Source of the DNA: Neoarius graeffei
Taxonomy: Eukaryota > Chordata > Actinopteri > Siluriformes > Ariidae
Length of the DNA: 64,000 nt
NCBI RefSeq assembly: GCF_027579695.1
Contig: NC_083596.1
Location: 10,887,798 to 10,951,797, forward strand
Reading direction: 5' to 3'
The translations under genes and the position numbers were made by a program. Below the pieces are notes generated by a model. That model was given only the letters and a program-made list of their open reading frames with translations. It was not told the origin of the DNA and searched no databases. Positions 14,201 to 62,260 of the stretch are shown piece after piece (the first letter of the stretch is position 1; each line of letters opens with the position of its first letter).

Positions 14201-17200
14201 TAAATTACTTTTTTTTTTTTTTATCTATTAGCAAGTCGTTTTTTCGCTGACCTGCGACAATCTTCTGCGAGTCACGCAACGTCCACACTCGCCACTGGCA
14301 GAGCATTCGTTCCTTTTAAGCGGTCGCCATTCTGGTTGCGACGCGGGGAGCGAATATGTAAACAAGCAGCTCATTGGCTGGCTAGGTGTGCCACAAGCCA
14401 ATCACAATCACTTGACCGGAAAGGCATGCAGTGTTGCCAGATTGGGCAGGTTTAGGTGCTTTTTGGCTGGTTTTGAACATATTTTGGGGTGGAAAACGTT
14501 AGCAATATCTCGCAACACTGAAGGCATGTCTGCTTGGGCGGAAGCCTTCTGCGGCAGTTACACTTTGACAGGCGAGCAATGTTTCACCATAAAAATTCCG
14601 TAATTTCCATCTGTTTTCCGCGATCACAGAAAATCATTGGCCCTATGTGAGACAGTGAGAGAGCCACCCCCCCAAAAAAAAAATCTTAACGGATTTACAC
14701 GATTTGGAAAAATGACTTTTTCAGAACCGAAAAACAGAGCTTCCGGCTCAACAGTATTTTGAGAAATAAAACAGTCTTTGGATATACATTTGTTCATTTT
14801 TGCATACATATTACTCATTCTCTGCAGTGGTCTGAATTATTTATTAAATAGTTAATGTAAGTAAGTAAATGTTTTAAGTCAAATTTACTACTTTAAAAAA
14901 ACATTAAAAAAAAATCGTGGGCGTATTGAATCGTGGGTCAAAAATCGCGATTCGAATCGCGAGTTGGGTGTATCGTTACAGCCCTAGTTGACACATGACT
15001 TAAGTTTTCTCAGCAAAGTATTCTATAACTTGGGACCTGCGTAAGCTAGCGTTCTTCCACCAAATTAACGTCTCTTTACTAGGAACCACTGTTTTTAAAA
15101 ACAGAAAAGGTATTGTTAGTGTGTTTACTATATTGTTTGCTAGTTTACAGTCCTGGTGTCTTCCTTGCTTGTAACGGACTCTGCATTAAAGTTGGGTTCA
15201 CGTCGAGTCCACTAATGTGTAGGACAAGGCGTCCTTGCTCTTGCTTTTTTGGGGGGGGGGGTCTGCTGCACTTCAGTGGGTTGTCCAAACCTTGCAACTA
15301 TCCAACCATCCATGGTGCACTTCAGTTTGCTTCTTACCCCAAACACTAATTTCAAGATCCTGAGGTTGAAATCCATCTCTACACGCACCCTTATTTTCTG
15401 CATTAAAGGTCCCATGGCATGGTGGTTTGTTGATGCTTTAAACGGGCTCGTGGAGGTTTCCGGATGTTATATCCGCAGCCTTTCTCGAAATGAGCCCTCG
15501 GCACGTAGATATAGCCTCCTGGGAGAAAGCCCCATTTCAGCGCTTTTCCCAGTGCGTCGTTTTGCTAATGAGAAGCAGGAGGCGGGGAAGGGTAGAGGGT
15601 GGAGGCGGGGCTTATTAATATTCATGACATGTAAACGTTACCTGATTGGCTAACAGCACTGTGATGCTACCTCCAGTGGGTCAGAACAAGCGGATGTGGG
15701 TGTCTTACTATAGCGAGAGAGAAGGAACAAACCGCGAAGGGAAAAATACTGCGTGCTGAAGTCATTAAGGTGCGATGCGAGGAAAAAATAAATTCAACAA
15801 ATGTTTGGATTTTTACTAAAACAAATAAAATGAACGAGTGACTTAAAAAGAATGTGGGTGTCTTTGTAAAAACTGTTTTGATTGGCTATTATAACAGAGC
15901 ATGCTGCATGCTTTTTGGTTTTGTAGCACAGAGTACCTGGCTAACTGTAGGAAGTGGTTAGCTGCACATTGCGAGGCTAACGTGGCACCGATTTTAAAAC
16001 ACGGCAAAACGACTTAACAGTTATACACTTACTTGTTCGGTGTTTGTGGCTGATGCGGCAGGGATGCTTGGTACGGACCCAGGCTTCAGTGACAGTTGAT
16101 GTGCAAAACCTGCCCTGTACTGTCCCAAGTTGTGGAAACATTCCTCAGGAAAATGCTTCTGACAAACATACACTGTCTTAGGTAGACTCGACGGCGTATT
16201 ATTGAAGTAAATAAAATTAAGCCACTGCGTCTTCAGGGGCTCTCCCGTCGGCAGTAAAAGCGGACTCTTTTCTGTGTTGTCACATCCATGTACAGCGCAA
16301 TTTCCATGTTTTGCTCGCTTAGGTGATGCCATGTTGTGTCCTCTATGGTCTCCTCACTACAACTGGGCGGGCAATTCATACAGTGGGTGGGAATCCAGAG
16401 GGGGGGCGTGGGGATCATCTCCCTTGCTGACGTAGTAAAGGGAAGAGTTTATCAATGCGCCGTTTTGACGCGCCATTCTCAAATGTTGGGCATAGTTTGG
16501 TTTACACATTATGAAATTTCTAGCCACTGGGGTGACTTAAGAAGGTCAGAGGAACTCATTTTAACATTAAACCTCAAAGTGAAAATTTCATGCCATGGGA
16601 CCTTTAATACATCCCTTTTCATGGCTCGGTTAATACTTGGTAAACACATGAAAGCCTCAGGAATGATTCCTCCAGAGGAAAGGGCAAGAGCTTGAGTATG
16701 ACCGCTATAGTTTAAGAGCAATGCAGGTTCAAAGATCTGCTCATGATATTGGCTGGTATGTTTGTTTTCTTCAGAAATGCAAGTCCTAACCCAGATGTAA
16801 TGCAGTTTAAAGGGGCGGGGGGGGGCTTGTCTTAGTTTCACAAGTACTCTTGAACAAAAGTACAACAATCTTAATTTTGACGAGCCTAATGTGTTAAAAC
16901 CATAGTTGAAGATCAGATCCCTTACTACATGTTCCAAATGTAACCAACAGTGGAGTTGTGCAGTCTGTCCACCAGAGGGCGTACTGTATCAGTACAGACA
17001 TGGTTGAAATCACTATTTGGGGGGCAAAAAAGTGGTAATGTGTTTTGTCTAAACTTTGCCATCTGTATGAATGTGTCTGACTTTCTGCAGCAGGATGTGA
17101 AGGCTGCATCTGTGGTGGTTGAGAAGGTCCCTGAGCCAGTTCAAGAGGCAAAAAAACAGGAGCCAAAGCAGCTGCCGAAAGTGGAAAATGAGGAGGTTCT

Positions 17201-40674: not shown

Positions 40675-40817
40675 TCTCAAACTGTGACTTTCTTTCACTG
40701 TGGTATGGGTGTTGGTTTGAGCCAGATGGACTGGTTTGAATATTTCAGAAACTGCTGATCTCCTGGGGTTTTCACACACAACCGTCTCTAGAGTTTACAC
40801 AGAATGGTACAAAAACA

Positions 40818-41198
40818 GGCGGCACGGTGGTGTAGTGGATAGCGCTGTCGCCTCACAGCAAGAAGGTCCTGGGTTCGAGCCCCGGGGCCGGCGAGGGCCT
40901 TTCTGTGTGGAGTTTGCATGTTCTCCCCGTGTCCACGTGGGTTTCCTCCGGGTGCTCCGGTTTCCCCCACAGTCCAAAGACATGCAGGTTAGGTTAACTG
41001 GTGACTCTAAATTGAGCGTAGGTGTGAATGTGAGTGTGAATGGCTGTCTGTGTCTATGTGTCAGCCCTGTGATGATCTGGCGACTTGTCCAGGGTGTACC
41101 CCGCCTTTCGCCCGTAGTCAGCTGGGATAGGCTCCAGCTTGCCTGCGACCCTGTAGAAGGATAAAGCGGCTAGAGATAATGAGATGAGATGAGATGAG
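40818..41198 (+). mobile_element. tRNA-headed SINE (main family)
   Basis: Duplication ATGGTACAAAAACA at 40804-40817 and 41199-41212, within the Tc1-type relic. Confidence 0.94.
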
Positions 41199-43909: not shown

Positions 43910-44056
43910 GAATGATGTGATAAGGAGCTTTAGATTTAAACTACAGAAACCAGAATCTTCTCCTCATAGATTTTAGCTGCACAAATCTACACGAAGCAGG
44001 AATGACAGTTAATTAAATAAACATGGAAGACACAAGACAAAATACTTTTTCAATTA

Positions 44057-44062
44057 TTTAAT
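44057..44062 (-). terminator. pmch copy 1 candidate poly(A) signal
   Basis: ATTAAA on the minus strand, about 90 bases after the stop. No AATAAA is closer. Confidence 0.5.
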
Positions 44063-44148
44063 GATACAGATAAATATCATGTGCTGCACAGGATCAGAAG
44101 TTTTGATCTGGATTTCCTTGCAGTCGTCACTGGACTCCTCCACAGGAA

Positions 44149-44511
44149 CTAGATGTCCCAGCATGGTCGGTACACCCTTCCCAACATGCACAGCTTGGTG
44201 TCCCTCCTGATGATGGAGATACCTGGGCTGAGATCTGGGCTTCCATCTTTGCGTTCGGGACTCAGGATCCTCTCGGGAATTTTCCTTTCCAGAGGCTTCA
44301 GTGCTCTCAGCAGCAGGTCGGCGTCTGCCACCATGATGATTTTAGAAACGCCTGGTCCGGAACCCACTGTGTTCTCAGCCAGTCCTTCTCCAGTAGAGTC
44401 TTGGATGAGGTCTATGTCTTCAATGTTCTCCAGTGGAAGTGCCTCTGATTTTATGTTGCCATCAGACAAGAAGGCGATGGTGAAGAGTACGGAGAAGACG
44501 GTCAGCTTCAT
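44149..44511 (-). CDS. pmch: Pro-melanin-concentrating hormone, copy 1
   Basis: 120 residues, one exon. MCH is a secreted hypothalamic/pituitary neuropeptide that pales fish skin and affects feeding through G-protein-coupled receptors. The precursor opens with a signal peptide (MKLTVFSVLFTIAFLSDG). The last 17 residues, DTKLCMLGRVYRPCWDI, follow the dibasic site RR. Cys5 and Cys14 close the ring, and GRVYRPCW is invariant. Salmon MCH is DTMRCMVGRVYRPCWEV, so positions 3, 4, 7, 16 and 17 differ. Teleost MCH genes are known to lack introns in salmonids, as here. An upstream in-frame ATG (44553) is rejected as the start: it would put 14 polar residues before the signal peptide and lies about 30 bases from the TATA box, near the expected transcription start. 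Confidence 0.93.
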   Translation of the reverse strand: MKLTVFSVLFTIAFLSDGNIKSEALPLENIEDIDLIQDSTGEGLAENTVGSGPGVSKIIMVADADLLLRALKPLERKIPERILSPERKDGSPDLSPGISIIRRDTKLCMLGRVYRPCWDI

Positions 44512-44582
44512 TCTGCGTTTTGATTCTGCTGCTTTCTGTTGATTCTCCAACAAATTGCTCTGACTACGATTGCTTCCTTGAG

Positions 44583-44592
44583 TTTTTATATA
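44583..44592 (-). promoter_or_regulatory. TATA box of pmch copy 1
   Basis: TATATAAAAA on the minus strand, about 75 bases upstream of the chosen ATG. It predicts a 5' UTR of roughly 45 bases. Confidence 0.75.
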
Positions 44593-45029
44593 CCTGAAGG
44601 TGCCACGTTATCCCATGATGAAGTGATTCAGGCCTTGCTGTTTGTCGTCTTTATGGATAATGAACAAAATCTTTTTATAACATCTGATGAGACCTCAAGC
44701 AGTGTTGAAGTGGTTTGTTTGGTGGGACATTAATTAAGATTACCTGCAGTCCATCGGAAAACAGTAGGGTTGCATTATAAGGAGAGATGTAATTCAATAA
44801 TCCCTCGTCTTAGAGAAACAATATGGGGGATTATGGACCTGTTGTTGTTCCAAATGATTCTAAAAAAAAAAAAAAGGTTATCTGCCAGTTTAAAAAAAAA
44901 CTGACTGGGTAAACAAAAAAAGAAAACATCAGGTTATTGAAGACTAAATGGAAAACCGATTTTGTCACGATCATTCATTAAGACATTTCACAGCATTCAT
45001 GTGGATGTTACTTGGACCCCTACCACCTA

Positions 45030-45586
45030 CAGTACCAGTCAAAAATTTGGACACAGCTTCTAATTCAACTATTTTTCTTTATTTTTATGAATTAAAAGAC
45101 ACTTCATTGTCTTAAAGTAATGATGGATGTCGTTTCTCTTTACTTAGTTGTTTGGTTCTTGACATAATACTGTATGGATTACTACAGTTGTATTGTGGAA
45201 TAGGGCTTTTTACTGTATATTTATTATTCACTGCTTACTGTTTGATCTTAAACGCATTAAGAAGGCAAGAAACTCGTCCACTAATTAAGTTTTGACGAGG
45301 CACCTGTTAATCGAAAAGCTTTCCTGGTGACTACCTCATAAAGCTGGTTAAGATAATGACAATAGTGTGCAAAGTGTCATCAAGGTAAACGCTGGCTACT
45401 TTGAAGAATCTAAAATATCAAACGTTTTTTAACACTTTGTTGTTTACCACATAATTCCATGTATGTTCCATATGTTTTTTTCCCATAGTTTTGATGTCTT
45501 CAGTATTGTTCTATAATGTAGAAAATAGTCCAAATACAGAAAAACCTATGAATGAGTAGGGGTGTACAAACTTTTGACTGGTACTG
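45030..45586. mobile_element. Tc1/mariner MITE
   Basis: The ends are CAGTACCAGTCAAAAATTTG and complement CAGTACCAGTCAAAAGTTTG, with TA at 45028-45029 and 45587-45588. 557 bp, no transposase. Confidence 0.88.
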
Positions 45587-45599
45587 TACCTAAACATTG

Positions 45600-46300
45600 T
45601 TGCAGACCAAGTACACCGTTTCTTGATAACAGTATTCCCTAATAGCAGTGGCCTCTTTCAGCAGGATAACATGCCCTGCTGTGCTTCAAAAATTGTTCAG
45701 GAATGGTTTGAGGAAAATGACAAAGAGTTCGGGGTGTTGACTTGGCCTCCAAATTCCACAGATCTCAATCCGATCGAGTATCTGTGGGATGTTCTGGACA
45801 AACAAATCAGATCCATGAAAGCCCCACCTTGCAACTTACAGGACTTAAAATATTTATGGAAGGCAGTAGCAAAATTGGGGCGGCACGGTGGTGTAGTGGT
45901 TAGCGCTGTCGCCTCACAGCAAGAAGGTCCTGGGTTCGAGCCCCGGGGCTGGCGAGGGCCTTTCTGTGTGGAGTTTGCATGTTCTCCCCGTGTCCGCGTG
46001 GGTTTCCTCCGGGTGCTCCGGTTTCCCCCACAGTCCAAAGACATGCAGGTTAGGTTAACTGGTGACTCTAAATTGACCGTAGGTGTGAATGTGAGTGTGA
46101 ATGGTTGTCTATGTGTCAGCCCTGTGATGACCTGGCGACTTGTCCAGGGTGTACCCCGCCTTTCGCCCGTAGTCAGCTGGGATAGGCTCCAGGTTGCCTG
46201 CGACCCTGTAGAAGGATAAAGCGGCTAGAGATAATGAGATGAGTAGCAAAATTGTTCCTTTAAATTTTGCTCCACAGGGAAGTCAGAATTGTATTTTTCT
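45600..46300 (+). pseudogene. Tc1-like transposase C-terminal fragment
   Basis: GLFQQDNMPCCASKIVQEWF holds the second catalytic Asp and STDLNPIEYLWDVLDKQIRS holds the Glu. The frame runs 45623-45875, then is broken by a SINE. The N-terminal half and the element's ends are not seen. Confidence 0.82.
45878..46241 (+). mobile_element. tRNA-headed SINE (main family)
   Basis: Duplication AGTAGCAAAATTG at 45865-45877 and 46242-46254. It extends the transposase frame by chance through its own open frame. Confidence 0.94.
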
Positions 46301-47007
46301 GTTTCAGCACCAAGCTGCATTTTTTTTCTGTCTTATGACTTCAAGACAAAGTGAAGGAATGATGTTTATCACTGTTATAAGTGATAAGATGTTGATGTTT
46401 ATAGCTGATATAACTTAAAGCTAGACTGCCTTTCAGATTTTTCAAGCGTAGGTCATAAAAATAATTTTCCCCGACACCCAATTATTTTTATTTAGTGGAT
46501 TGAAAGCTACTGAATTTGAATCACAGACTTCCAATGTTATTAGTTTTTTTAAAATAGAACAATTAATGAATTTAAGGCAACGTGGCCCTAAATTCTCCGC
46601 TATTTTTTCCTGCTTCACCATGACCCAATTCAAGATACTACGTCATGCATGACGTGGCGGGCTTTCCCCGTTCGCACAAGGCATTGTGGGATACAAATTT
46701 GAAACAGGAGAGAAAAATGGAGGATGTGAGTGTGCGAATGAAACGTGAAAGACTGACTAACGGAAAGTGAGAAGAAAAGACATTATATTATATACGAAGG
46801 AAAGGAAACGCAGGACCAAACTAATAAATATCGGAGGTCAGCGAGCGCCTCGGTGTGATCAGCTGTTCGTTTAGTGACAGAATGATGGAACTGTCAGTGC
46901 ACGCTCAAAAGTAAACCTGTAGATAGCAGTAATGCAACACTGTGGATGCCAGCTGCCATAAAACCCAAAAGAAGAAGGTAAACCTGCACATGCACACACA
47001 TGCCCAA
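46255..47007. other. Intergenic stretch
   Basis: 46660-46760 contains a GGCATTGTGGGATAC motif and CG-bearing sequence, but no coding exon is supported. Confidence 0.4.
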
Positions 47008-47346
47008 TGTCCGAAATCGCTCCCTACTCACTATATAGTGAGGACGCCATTTTGTAGTGCTGTCTGAAACCTTAGTGAGGATTATTTACACCCTATATAG
47101 TGCACTCAAAGTATCCCACAATGCATCACGAAAAGTAGTGTACAACTGATGGTCACTAACCAAAGCAATATATCCCATCATGCATTGCAGTCGCGCTGAA
47201 AGAAATCAAATTAAAAGTCTCAAATCTGATTTAACAAAAGGCAGCGGCAAAGAAGAAAGTATACAGCCTTGATTTAAAAGAACTGAAAGATGCAGGTACT
47301 TTGTATTGATTAATGTTGGAAATACGCTCAGGATAATATGGATTTA

Positions 47347-47724
47347 GGGGCGGCACGGTGGTGTAGTGGTTAACGCTGTCGCCTCACAGCAAGAAGGTCC
47401 TGGGTTCGAGCCCCAGGGCCGGCGAGGGCCTTTCTGTGCGGAGTTTGCATGTTCTCCCCGTGTCCGCGTGGGTTTCCTCCGGGTGCTCCGGCTTCCCCCA
47501 CAGTCCAAAGACATGCAGGTTAGGTTAACTGGTGACTCTAAATTGACCGTAGGTGTGAATGTGAGTGTGAATGGTTGTCTGTGTCTATGTGTCAGCCCTG
47601 TGATGACCTGGTGACTTGTCCAGGGTGTACCCCGCCTTTCGCCAGTAGTCAGCTGGGATAGGCTCCAGCTTGCCTGCGACCCTGTAGAAGGATAAAGCGG
47701 CTAGAGATAATGAGATGAGAGATG
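47347..47724 (+). mobile_element. tRNA-headed SINE (main family)
   Basis: Duplication ATATGGATTTA at 47336-47346 and 47725-47735. Confidence 0.94.
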
Positions 47725-47901
47725 ATATGGATTTATCACAGAAATACACACATGTATTTATTATTTTGAAAACCAATCAGCCGACTGATCTGGCACGTTT
47801 TAATTGTGGGACAGTAATGACGTAAATACCAGCGCAACGGACTAGTGTCCGAAAGCGTTTTTTCATTCTACCAATGAGCTCACTGTATAGTCCTCTATAT
47901 A

Positions 47902-49506
47902 CAACCCCGATTCCAAAAAAGTTGGGACAAAGTACAAATTGTAAATAAAAACGGAATGCAATAATTTACAAATCTCAAAAACTGATATTGTATTCACAAT
48001 AGAACGTAGACAACATATCAAATGTCGAAAGTGAGACATTTTGAAATTTCATGCCAAATATTGGCTCATTTGAAATTTCATGACAGCAACACATCTCAAA
48101 AAAGTTGGGACAGGGGCAATAAGAGGCTGGAAAAGTTAAAGGTACAAAAAAGGAACAGCTGGAGGACCAAATTGCAACTCATTAGGTCAGTTGGCAATAG
48201 GTCATTAACATGACTGGGTATAAAAAGAGCATCTTGGAGTGGCAGCGGCTCTCAGAAGTAAAGATGGGAAGAGGATCACCAATCCCCCTAATTCTGCACC
48301 GACAAATAGTGGAGCAATATCAGAAAGGAGTTCGACAGTGTAAAATTGCAAAGAGTTTGAACATATCATCATCTACAGTGCATAATATCATCAAAAGATT
48401 CAGAGAATCTGGAAGAATCTCTGTGCGTAAGGGTCAAGGCCGGAAAACCATACTGGGTGCCCGTGATCTTCGGGCCCTTAGACGGCACTGCATCACATAC
48501 AGGCATGCTTCTGTATTGGAAATCACAAAATGGGCTCAGGAATATTTCCAGAGAACATTATCTGTGAACACAATTCACCGTGCCATCCGCCGCTGCCAGC
48601 TAAAACTCTATAGTTCAAAGAAGAAGCCGTATCTAAACACGATCCAGAAGCGCAGACGTCTTCTCTGGGCCAAGGCTCATTTAAAATGGACTGTGGCAAA
48701 GTGGAAAACTGTTCTGTGGTCAGATGAATCAAAATTTGAAGTTCTTTATGGAAATCAGGGACGCCGTGTCATTCGCACTAAAGAGGAGAAGGACGACCCA
48801 AGTTGTTATCAGCGCTCAGTTCAGAAGCCTGCATCTCTGATGGTATGGGGTTGCATTAGTGCGTGTGGCATGGGCAGCTTACACATCTGGAAAGACACCA
48901 TCAATGCTGAAAGGTATATCCAGGTTCTAGAGCAACATATGCTCCCATCCAGACGACGTTTCTTTCAGGGAAGACCTTGCATTTTCCAACATGACAATGC
49001 CAAACCACATACTGCATCAATTACAGCATCATGGCTGCGTAGAAGAAGGGTCCGGGTACTGAACTGGCCAGCCTGCAGTCCAGATCTTTCACCCATAGAA
49101 AACATTTGGTGCATCATAAAACGGAAGAGACGACAAAAAAGACCTAAGACAGTTGAGCAACTAGAATCCTACATTAGACAAGAATGGGTTAACATTCCTA
49201 TCCCTAAACTTGAGCAACTTGTCTCCTCAGTCCCCAGACGTTTACAGACTGTTGTAAAGAGAAAAGGGGATGTCTCACAGTGGTAAACATGGCCTTGTCC
49301 CAACTTTTTTGAGATGTGTTGTTGTCATGAAATTTAAAATCACCTAATTTTTCTCTTTAAATGATACATTTTCTCAGTTTAAACATTTGATATGTCATCT
49401 ATGTTCTATTCTGAATAAAATATGGAATTTTGAAACTTCCACATCATTGCATTCCGTTTTTATTTACAATTTGTACTTTGTCCCAACTTTTTTGGAATCA
49501 GGGTTG
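47902..49506 (+). mobile_element. Tc1-family transposon with uninterrupted transposase
   Basis: 1605 bp between TA dinucleotides (47900-47901, 49507-49508). The inverted repeats begin CAACCCCGATTCCAAAAAAG and its complement (one mismatch near the tip). The internal motif AAAAAAGTTGGGACA recurs near 48099 and, complemented, near 49300, the IR/DR arrangement. It is the best preserved DNA transposon in the window. Confidence 0.95.
48264..49286 (+). CDS. Tc1 transposase, open reading frame intact
   Basis: 340 residues from [10 protein letters not shown] to KGDVSQW, the standard Tc1 length. An earlier in-frame ATG at 48210 would add 18 residues; MGRG is preferred because family proteins start next to the first helix-turn-helix. 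Two helix-turn-helix parts ([33 protein letters not shown]) with a basic GRKT link bind the inverted repeats. The DDE catalytic triad is complete: [17 protein letters not shown] and [11 protein letters not shown], with 34 residues between the second Asp and the Glu. No stop or shift. Whether it is still active cannot be told from sequence. Confidence 0.94.
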
Positions 49507-49555
49507 TAGTAATTCCCTATATAGGGAGTAGTGAACGAGTGAGCGATTTCGGACA

Positions 49556-50096
49556 CAGGGACAGACTTCCTCTGTCTGCTTGACTGAGCAAAGCGAGTGA
49601 TTTCAGGCACATTATTTGGTCGAGAATCCCCTCAAATTAAATAACTTCCCAGCCACAGAATGGTCTGGGTTTTTTTTTTAAAGATATTACAGAAATAAAC
49701 ATATATCTCAATGACCAAATTTCAGAGGGAACTAAATTTCACTGATTTTATGAAATCGAAAGGCCGTCTAGATTTAAGTGATAACAGGCCCTAACTGTTT
49801 TGAGGACGTTCTACGACATTAAAATACTATATACAGACAAAAACATATGACAAGTTGTTCTTTAATGAATATAAATTTGTAATCATTGGTAAATTGCTGT
49901 GGTATAAGAACAATAAAAAAGCACTTAAAGATGTGCTGTTATTGTAAAAGAGTGGTGGTACCGGTAACTCTATCATTGACAGTCATATTTTATTCCTTAC
50001 TTATAGGAAGAAATGCCAACAACGGTTAAACTAGTTTGAATTCGTTGCACAAGAAGTGAAGGCAGATATATCATTTACTTATAGGTATAATTATTG
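49556..50096. other. Intergenic stretch between the pmch copies
   Basis: AT-rich, no gene or bounded element seen. Confidence 0.45.
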
Positions 50097-50347
50097 AAAT
50101 GATGTGATTAGAAGATTTAGAGTGAGACTATAGAAACCGAATTTTTAATCTCAGTGAGTTTAGCTGCACAAATCTACACAAAGCAGGAATGACAGTTAAT
50201 TAAATCAAAATGGAAGACACAAGACAAAATACTTTTTCAATTATTTAATTGTGGATTTAATCATACAGATAAATATCATGTGCTGCACAGGATCAGAAGT
50301 TTTGATCTGGATTTCCTTGCAGTCGTCACTGGACTCCTCCACAGGAA

Positions 50348-50710
50348 CTAGATGTCCCAGCATGGTCGGTACACCCTTCCCAACATGCACAGCTTGGTGT
50401 CCCTCCTGATGATGGAGATACCTGGGCTGAGGTCTGGGCTTCCATCTTTGCGTTCGGGACTCAGGATCCTCTCGGGAATTTTCCTTTCCAGAGGCTTCAG
50501 TGCTCTCAGCAGCAGGTCGGCGTCTGCCACCATGATGAACTTAGAAACGCCTGGTCCGGAACCCACTGTGTTCTCAGCCAGTCCTTCTCCAGTAGAGTCT
50601 TGGATGAGGTCTATGTCTTCAATGTTCTCCAGTGGAAGTGCCTCTGATTTTATGTTGCCATCAGACAAGAAGGCGATGGTGAAGAGTACGGAGAAGACGG
50701 TCAGCTTCAT
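50348..50710 (-). CDS. pmch: Pro-melanin-concentrating hormone, copy 2
   Basis: 120 residues, identical to copy 1 except Phe for Ile in VSK(F/I)IMVAD. By eye the coding sequences differ at three bases: one silent and two adjacent changes that make the Ile/Phe difference. Signal peptide, RR site and mature DTKLCMLGRVYRPCWDI are the same, so both genes should release one peptide. Same start reasoning as copy 1. It lies on the same strand, about 6.2 kb away, as a direct duplicate. Confidence 0.93.
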   Translation of the reverse strand: MKLTVFSVLFTIAFLSDGNIKSEALPLENIEDIDLIQDSTGEGLAENTVGSGPGVSKFIMVADADLLLRALKPLERKIPERILSPERKDGSPDLSPGISIIRRDTKLCMLGRVYRPCWDI

Positions 50711-50781
50711 TCTGCGTTTTGATTCTGCTGCTTTCTGTTGATTCTCCAACAAATTGCTCTGACTACGATTGCTTCCTTGAG

Positions 50782-50791
50782 TTTTTATATA
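50782..50791 (-). promoter_or_regulatory. TATA box of pmch copy 2
   Basis: TATATAAAAA on the minus strand at the same distance from the ATG as in copy 1. The flanking promoter is almost unchanged, so both copies may be transcribed alike. Confidence 0.75.
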
Positions 50792-51060
50792 CCTGAAGGT
50801 GCCACGTTATCCCACGATGAAGTGATTCAGGCCTTGCTGTTTGTGGTCTTTATGGATAATGAACAAAATCTTTTTATAACATCTGATGAGACCTCAAGCA
50901 GTGTTGAAGTGGTTTGTTTGGTGGGACATTAATTAAGATTACCTGCAGTCCATCGGAAAACAGTAGGGTTGCATTATAAGGAGAGATGTAATTCAATAAT
51001 CCCTCGTCTTAGAGAAACAATATGGGGGATTATGGACCTGTTGTTGTTGTTGTTCCAGAT

Positions 51061-51430
51061 CTCATCTCATCTCATTATCTCTAGCCGCTTTATCCTTCTA
51101 CAGGGTCGCAGGCAAGCTGGAGCCTATCCCAGCTGACTACGGGCGAAAGGCGGGGTACACCCTGGACAAGTCGCCAGGTCATCACAGGGCTGACACATAG
51201 ACACAGACAACCATTCACATTCACACCTACGGTCAATTTAGAGTCACCAGTTAACCTAACCTGCATGTCTTTGGACTGTGGGGGAAACCGGAGCACCCGG
51301 AGGAAACCCACGCGGACACGGGGAGAACATGCAAACTCCACACAGAAAGGCCCTCGCCGGCCCCGGGGCTCGAACCCAGGACCTTCTTGCTGTGAGGCGA
51401 CAGCACTAACTACTACACCACCGTGCCGCC
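51061..51430 (-). mobile_element. tRNA-headed SINE in the pmch copy 2 upstream region
   Basis: Duplication TGTTGTTCCAGAT at 51048-51060 and 51431-51443. The matching site in copy 1 (about 44840-44855) is empty. It lies about 350 bases upstream of the copy 2 ATG. Confidence 0.95.
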
Positions 51431-51582
51431 TGTTGTTCCAGATGATTCTAAAAAAAAAAAAAATTGTTATCTGCCAGTTTTAAAAAGACTGACTGGGTCA
51501 AAAAAAAAAAAAAAACCACCAGGTTATTGGAGACTAAATGGAAAACCGATTTTGTCATGACCATTCATTAGGACATTTTACA

Positions 51583-61878: not shown

Positions 61879-62260
61879 ATGGCGGCACGGTGGTGTAGTG
61901 GTTAGCACTGTCGCCTCACAGCAAGAAGGTCCTGGGTTCGAGCCCCGGGGCCGGCGAGGGCCTTTCTGCGTGGAGTTTGCATGTTCTCCCCGTGTCCGCG
62001 TGGGTTTCCTCCGGGTGCTCCGGTTTCCCCCACAGTCCAAAGACATGCAGGTTAGGTTAACTGGTGACTCTAAATTGACCGTAGGTGTGAATGTGAGTGT
62101 GAATGGTTGTCTGTGTCTATGTGTCAGCCCTGTGATGACCTGGCGACTTGTCCAGGGTGTACCCTGCCTTTCGCCCGTAATCAGCTGGGATAGGCTCCAG
62201 CTTGCCTGCGACCCTGTAGAAGGATAAAGCAGCTAGAGATAATGAGATGAATGAGATGAG
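61879..62260 (+). mobile_element. tRNA-headed SINE (main family)
   Basis: Full-length. Duplication ACAAAGACGTCCT at 61866-61878 and 62261-62273. Confidence 0.94.

Follow-up and report, generated by a model that had tools for sequence, protein, structure and literature searches.

The locus described here is, on the evidence of its sequence, a tandem pair of teleost pmchb genes (MCH1/pmch1, the salmon-type genes), and its two copies are probably the product of an older duplication at the DNA level that was followed by a recent gene conversion, which would have homogenised them. The tandem pair is real and the hormone gene a known one; what is new is the conversion-like history, together with the unusual sequence of the hormone. 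The pair lies within the 64-kb stretch of DNA that was analysed as a whole (the window), on the minus strand, with a distance of 6199 bp from start to start. Its coding sequences, hormones and TATA boxes are placed as follows:

44149-44511, minus strand: pmchb copy 1, coding sequence including its stop codon (120 aa), from the ORF and Pfam PF05824
50348-50710, minus strand: pmchb copy 2, coding sequence including its stop codon (120 aa; Phe58), from the ORF, Pfam and codons
44152-44202, minus strand: hormone of copy 1, DTKLCMLGRVYRPCWDI, with the RR codons at 44203-44208 before it, from the translation (coordinates from codon numbers)
50351-50401, minus strand: hormone of copy 2, the same as that of copy 1, with the RR codons at 50402-50407 before it, from the translation (coordinates from codon numbers)
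44585-44592, minus strand: TATATAAA box (TATA) of copy 1, from a pattern scan
50784-50791, minus strand: TATATAAA box (TATA) of copy 2, from a pattern scan

Both products exceed the 24-bit cut-off of the Pfam profile for Pro-MCH, PF05824, with 27.7 and 27.8 bits, in a match that covers only residues 87-120 of the 120 in each precursor. Each copy is a single uninterrupted ORF of 120 codons from the ATG through the hormone, which points to one-exon genes, and each precursor has a signal-peptide-like N-terminus (judged by eye) and a C-terminus that reads RR-DTKLCMLGRVYRPCWDI-stop. The single ORF, the start resembling a signal peptide and the 17-residue C-terminal hormone after RR, with cysteines at positions 5 and 14, are likenesses to teleost pmchb as described in the excerpt of PMC6901935, the difference being that the window has two copies in tandem. 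Three codons differ between the copies, two of them silently (K57, AAA in copy 1 and AAG in copy 2; D93, GAT and GAC, respectively) and one with an amino acid change (I58F, ATC in copy 1 and TTC in copy 2), and neither copy has a stop, a frameshift or a loss of the RR site. A first-pass annotation of this DNA had described two intronless pro-MCH genes on the minus strand, 6.2 kb apart, which encode the same 17-residue hormone, keep signal peptide, dibasic site and TATA box, and are told apart by an Ile or Phe codon; the ORFs, the translations and the identical TATA boxes agree with that description, and its direct duplication was recovered by blastn as two alike units (see below).

Both copies look functional, and both genes would be expressed in hypothalamic neurons, and the hormone would be freed after the RR site. 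Its action would be the aggregation of melanosomes in the skin, perhaps with effects on feeding, and the presence of two genes may raise the hormone dose. In zebrafish, both MCH peptides lower skin pigmentation when overexpressed, and this effect requires Mchr2 (PMC7755275, in excerpt). Antisense to each gene there is, in addition, an ORF of 129 aa on the plus strand (44153-44542 and 50352-50741), which is probably a by-product. Specifically, an equal or longer antisense frame was present in 568 of 1000 synonymous-codon shuffles of the copy 1 coding sequence, so that codon use alone explains the frame, and a functional antisense gene was rejected. A third pmch copy was not found within the 64-kb window (tblastn, next best E 2.6).

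The assignment to teleost pmchb follows from the single exon, the 17-residue hormone and the likeness of the precursor to that of salmon. The reference for the last point was a salmon MCH precursor of 132 residues, in what we take to be its sequence, and it aligns over the full length of the window protein. Once RR and hormone are left out, the two still align with a local score of 124, against 27.9 +/- 5.0 in 2000 shuffles, none of which reached 124; the motifs in common, which include SKII..AD and DLSP.ISI.RRDT, are a further likeness to teleost pmchb. In the excerpt of PMC6901935, pmchb is described as the best conserved of the teleost MCH paralogues and as a probable retrocopy that originated before the main teleost splits, and the precursor lengths given there are 124 residues in the described Otocephala, 132 in salmonids (Pmchb) and 129-136 in Neoteleosts, compared with 120 in the window. 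PMCH1 and PMCH2 have been reported from a cichlid (PMC4992253, in excerpt). The salmonid genes pmchb1 and pmchb2 resemble the present pair in being two pmchb genes with one identical hormone, but they lie on separate chromosomes as a result of whole-genome duplication (PMC6901935, in excerpt), whereas the window copies are 6.2 kb apart. With pmcha (pmch2) and mammalian PMCH the window hormone shares the ring CMLGRVYRPC with its LGRVY core (PMC11074101, in excerpt), but the pmcha gene is split into three exons and its hormone is at least 19 residues long, as opposed to one exon and 17 residues here. For the chromosomal neighbours that teleost pmchb genes share, a scan of 10 candidates among the 102 ORFs of at least 90 aa gave one THAP domain, one weak reverse-transcriptase match and no anchor gene. 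The ORF with the THAP domain (16024-16353, minus strand, 40.1 bits) may belong to a transposon or to a THAP gene. No RNA family reached its gathering score anywhere in the 64-kb window; solved structures gave three matches, none related by name and the best with E 0.23, in a collection that starts at chains of 20 residues and so excludes the hormone; and no relatives were found in viral contigs or prokaryote genome contigs, as expected of a fish gene.

The hormone was compared with DTMRCMVGRVYRPCWEV, which we take to be the sequence of teleost MCHB. Between this salmon-type MCH and the window hormone 12 of 17 residues are identical, and the differences at positions 3, 4, 7, 16 and 17 comprise one change in the ring (V7L, which yields the mammalian ring CMLGRVYRPC) and four outside it (M3K, R4L, E16D and V17I), while the LGRVY core and the cysteine ring of ten residues are retained. 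In older fish-scale assays full activity is said to lie within the Cys5-Trp15 core, and four of the five changes would therefore be tolerable. The excerpt of PMC6901935 gives Thr2, Met3, Val7 and Glu16 for teleost MCHB, which does not vary among the described Otocephala, the salmonids and tilapia, while other Neoteleosts have Asn in place of Thr2 and winter flounder has one further ring change. Measured against this described conservation five changes are unusual, and the window hormone departs from the conserved salmon-type sequence, which is a described regularity of pmchb and not its definition; the peptide may also be common to a whole group of fishes. The first-pass annotation had called the hormone atypical on account of KL at positions 3-4 and DI at the C-terminus, and was right in both; its statement that the ring is as expected does not stand in comparison with salmon, since the Val that teleost MCHB carries at position 7 (PMC6901935, in excerpt) is replaced by Leu, and with this missed change the count is 5 of 17 and not four.

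More specifically, the receptor contacts described for human MCH allow a reading by analogy. According to the excerpt of PMC11074101, human MCH has the LGRVY core, whose central arginine drives receptor activation in the human complexes; R6, the residue directly preceding the ring, contacts D179 in ECL2 of MCHR2, and at MCHR1 it is L5 and the hydrophobic portion of R6 that make contact with ECL2 and ECL3. The core receptor contact is, by this analogy, kept in the window peptide. The pre-ring Arg (R4, or R6 in mammalian numbering) is Leu and the residue before it Lys, and the change from Arg to Leu probably alters one peripheral receptor contact. Among the literature matches listed there was nothing useful on structure-activity work on fish MCH, and the titles and abstract starts among them report no tandem pmch, no such peptide and no catfish MCH; the excerpt of PMC3515998 has nothing relevant on a ligand residue, and the phrase melanin-concentrating is absent from that of PMC7067429. 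No paper was found for the strings GRVYRPCWDI and DTKLCMLG, which is a weak negative, as the salmon string CMVGRVYRPCWEV was likewise absent.

The near-identity of the two copies is confined to a block of ~830 bp, which the first-pass annotation overlooked. The block is part of a longer duplicated unit:

43911-44992, minus strand: whole duplicated unit, copy 1, from blastn
50098-51582, minus strand: whole duplicated unit, copy 2, interrupted by a SINE, from blastn
44023-44852, minus strand: block of low divergence in copy 1, interpreted as a tract of gene conversion, from a two-rate scan with 500 permutations

Within this block (promoter, gene and most of the 3′ flank adjoining the gene) 6 of 830 sites differ (0.7%), against 28 of 249 (11%) in the homologous flanks outside it. 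With the best split into two rates the gain is 27.9 log units, compared with a maximum of 14.1 in the permutations (0/500 as strong), and with fixed regions the counts are 6/827 against 28/252 (Fisher P = 2e-13). A bounded block of high identity within less similar, ~11%-different homologous flanks is what gene conversion would leave behind, and it is from this uneven divergence of the two sequences that we infer conversion after an older duplication. In this proposed history, one pmchb gene with its promoter would have been duplicated as DNA, and transposons would have entered the spacer between the copies; later, gene conversion, with its tract ending beside the SINE that inserted upstream of copy 2, would have overwritten ~830 bp of one unit (promoter, whole coding sequence and adjoining 3′ flank) with the sequence of the other, so that both genes would again encode one hormone. 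If neutral sites are taken to change at 2-4 per billion per year, the 11% would very roughly place the duplication at 14-28 million years ago and the 0.7% would, just as roughly, place the conversion at ~1-2 million years ago.

A single recent tandem duplication with no conversion, in which either the flanks mutate faster or strong selection acts on promoter and gene, is unlikely. Promoter and gene are plausible targets of selection, and the right flank contains A-rich runs and gaps, but many of its 13 differences are simple transitions. Furthermore, upstream sites (2 of 338 differ, where ~38 are predicted at the flank rate; P = 5e-15) and synonymous sites (2 of ~87, where ~10 are predicted; P = 0.0025) are far below the 11% of the flanks and as alike as the rest of the block, which selection at the protein level does not explain. 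Purifying selection on promoter and gene could nevertheless account for part of it, and it also speaks against conversion that only two sequences are compared, that the flanks are short (249 sites) with an A-rich right one, and that the 3′ boundary is vague: the left end may reach in to ~44064, and just inside the block there are a gap of 12 bp (44056) and a differing site (44063). Retroposition was considered as the source of the second copy and rejected; the sequence upstream is common to both copies (the 338 bases with 2 differences, and ~140 more that are ~9% different), which rules out a processed retrocopy. At the outer 3′ edge of the copy 1 unit, 43891-43918 matches 46338-46365 in the spacer over 28 bp (93%), which may be chance or the trace of a duplication junction.

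The two units also differ in the mobile elements that surround them:

51061-51430, minus strand: SINE-like repeat upstream of copy 2, between target duplications, from the sequence, its compared ends and its copies
51048-51060 and 51431-51443, minus strand: 13-bp target duplications TGTTGTTCCAGAT flanking the SINE, from compared ends
44843-44855, minus strand: matching site in copy 1 without a SINE, TGTTGTTCCAAAT, one base different, from compared ends
44993-45876, plus strand: remains of a Tc1-type transposase gene, interrupted by a small element, from translations and a DDE_3 match

The SINE (~370 bp) lies ~340 bp upstream of the start codon of copy 2; it is one of 17 long copies of its repeat in the window and departs from their joint consensus at 3 of 366 sites. 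The Tc1-type remnant adjoins the upstream edge of the copy 1 unit, ~480 bp upstream of the gene, and contains the small element, with inverted ends, at 45028-45588. The low-divergence block ends at most 3 bp from the SINE site, as would be expected if heterology stopped the pairing, though the counts are too low to establish that the SINE was there before the conversion.

An assembly artefact, which the first-pass annotation had named as a possible refutation, is weakened by the divergent flanks and by the presence of the SINE in one copy only, and seems improbable. It could take the form of two haplotypes placed in series, or of one consensus overwritten in polishing by reads of the other copy; the block is indeed 99% alike between the copies and polishing could mimic conversion. 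But a doubled haplotype should repeat its surroundings at similar identity, whereas the unit is only ~1.1 kb long with flanks that are 11% different, a self-comparison of 42-54 kb shows no similarity beyond the unit except repeats, the SINE has its target duplication in one copy only, and runs of N are absent from the window.

The spacer holds a Tc1-like element and two SINE copies. The former (47900-49508, between the genes) has inverted ends of 219 nt, 83% complementary, and an uninterrupted transposase ORF of 358 aa (48210-49286) with DDE_3 and Tc3-type HTH matches. The SINE-like repeat has 17 long copies in the 64 kb (e.g. 40817-41195, 47349-47731 and 61881-62257), 13 of which are less than 2.5% from their consensus, and this low divergence suggests recent activity. 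A short inverted match (36 bp, 86%) between 46405-46440 and 49753-49787 brackets most of the spacer, and perhaps represents the ends of a larger element holding SINE and Tc1.

That one copy alone works, the other being silent or decaying, is a possibility of some weight, if well short of likely, and it is compatible with duplication followed by conversion. It would fit the insertions near the genes (the SINE ~340 bp upstream of copy 2, the Tc1 remnant ~480 bp upstream of copy 1) and the Phe58 of copy 2, where copy 1 and the assumed salmon precursor have Ile; but both frames and RR sites are intact, and the copies are close to identical in the TATA box and in the 338 bases upstream. For copy-specific expression, the Ile/Phe codon offers a convenient marker.

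The weight of the tandem pair and of its hormone depends on relatives and on expression. If relatives share both pair and peptide, these would be a clade trait of moderate interest and less of a surprise. It is rather doubtful that a colour-change hormone which is elsewhere almost invariant has diverged in a fish lineage (5 of 17 residues changed, the pre-ring Arg lost) and been kept identical in two tandem genes by repeated gene conversion, as a case of concerted evolution in a neuropeptide pair that perhaps matches a change in the skin receptor. A version of the most conserved teleost MCH paralogue with five changes lends itself, in any case, to finding out which residues its receptors require, and a conversion tract over promoter and coding sequence would, if true, show how duplicate hormone genes stay alike long after their duplication.
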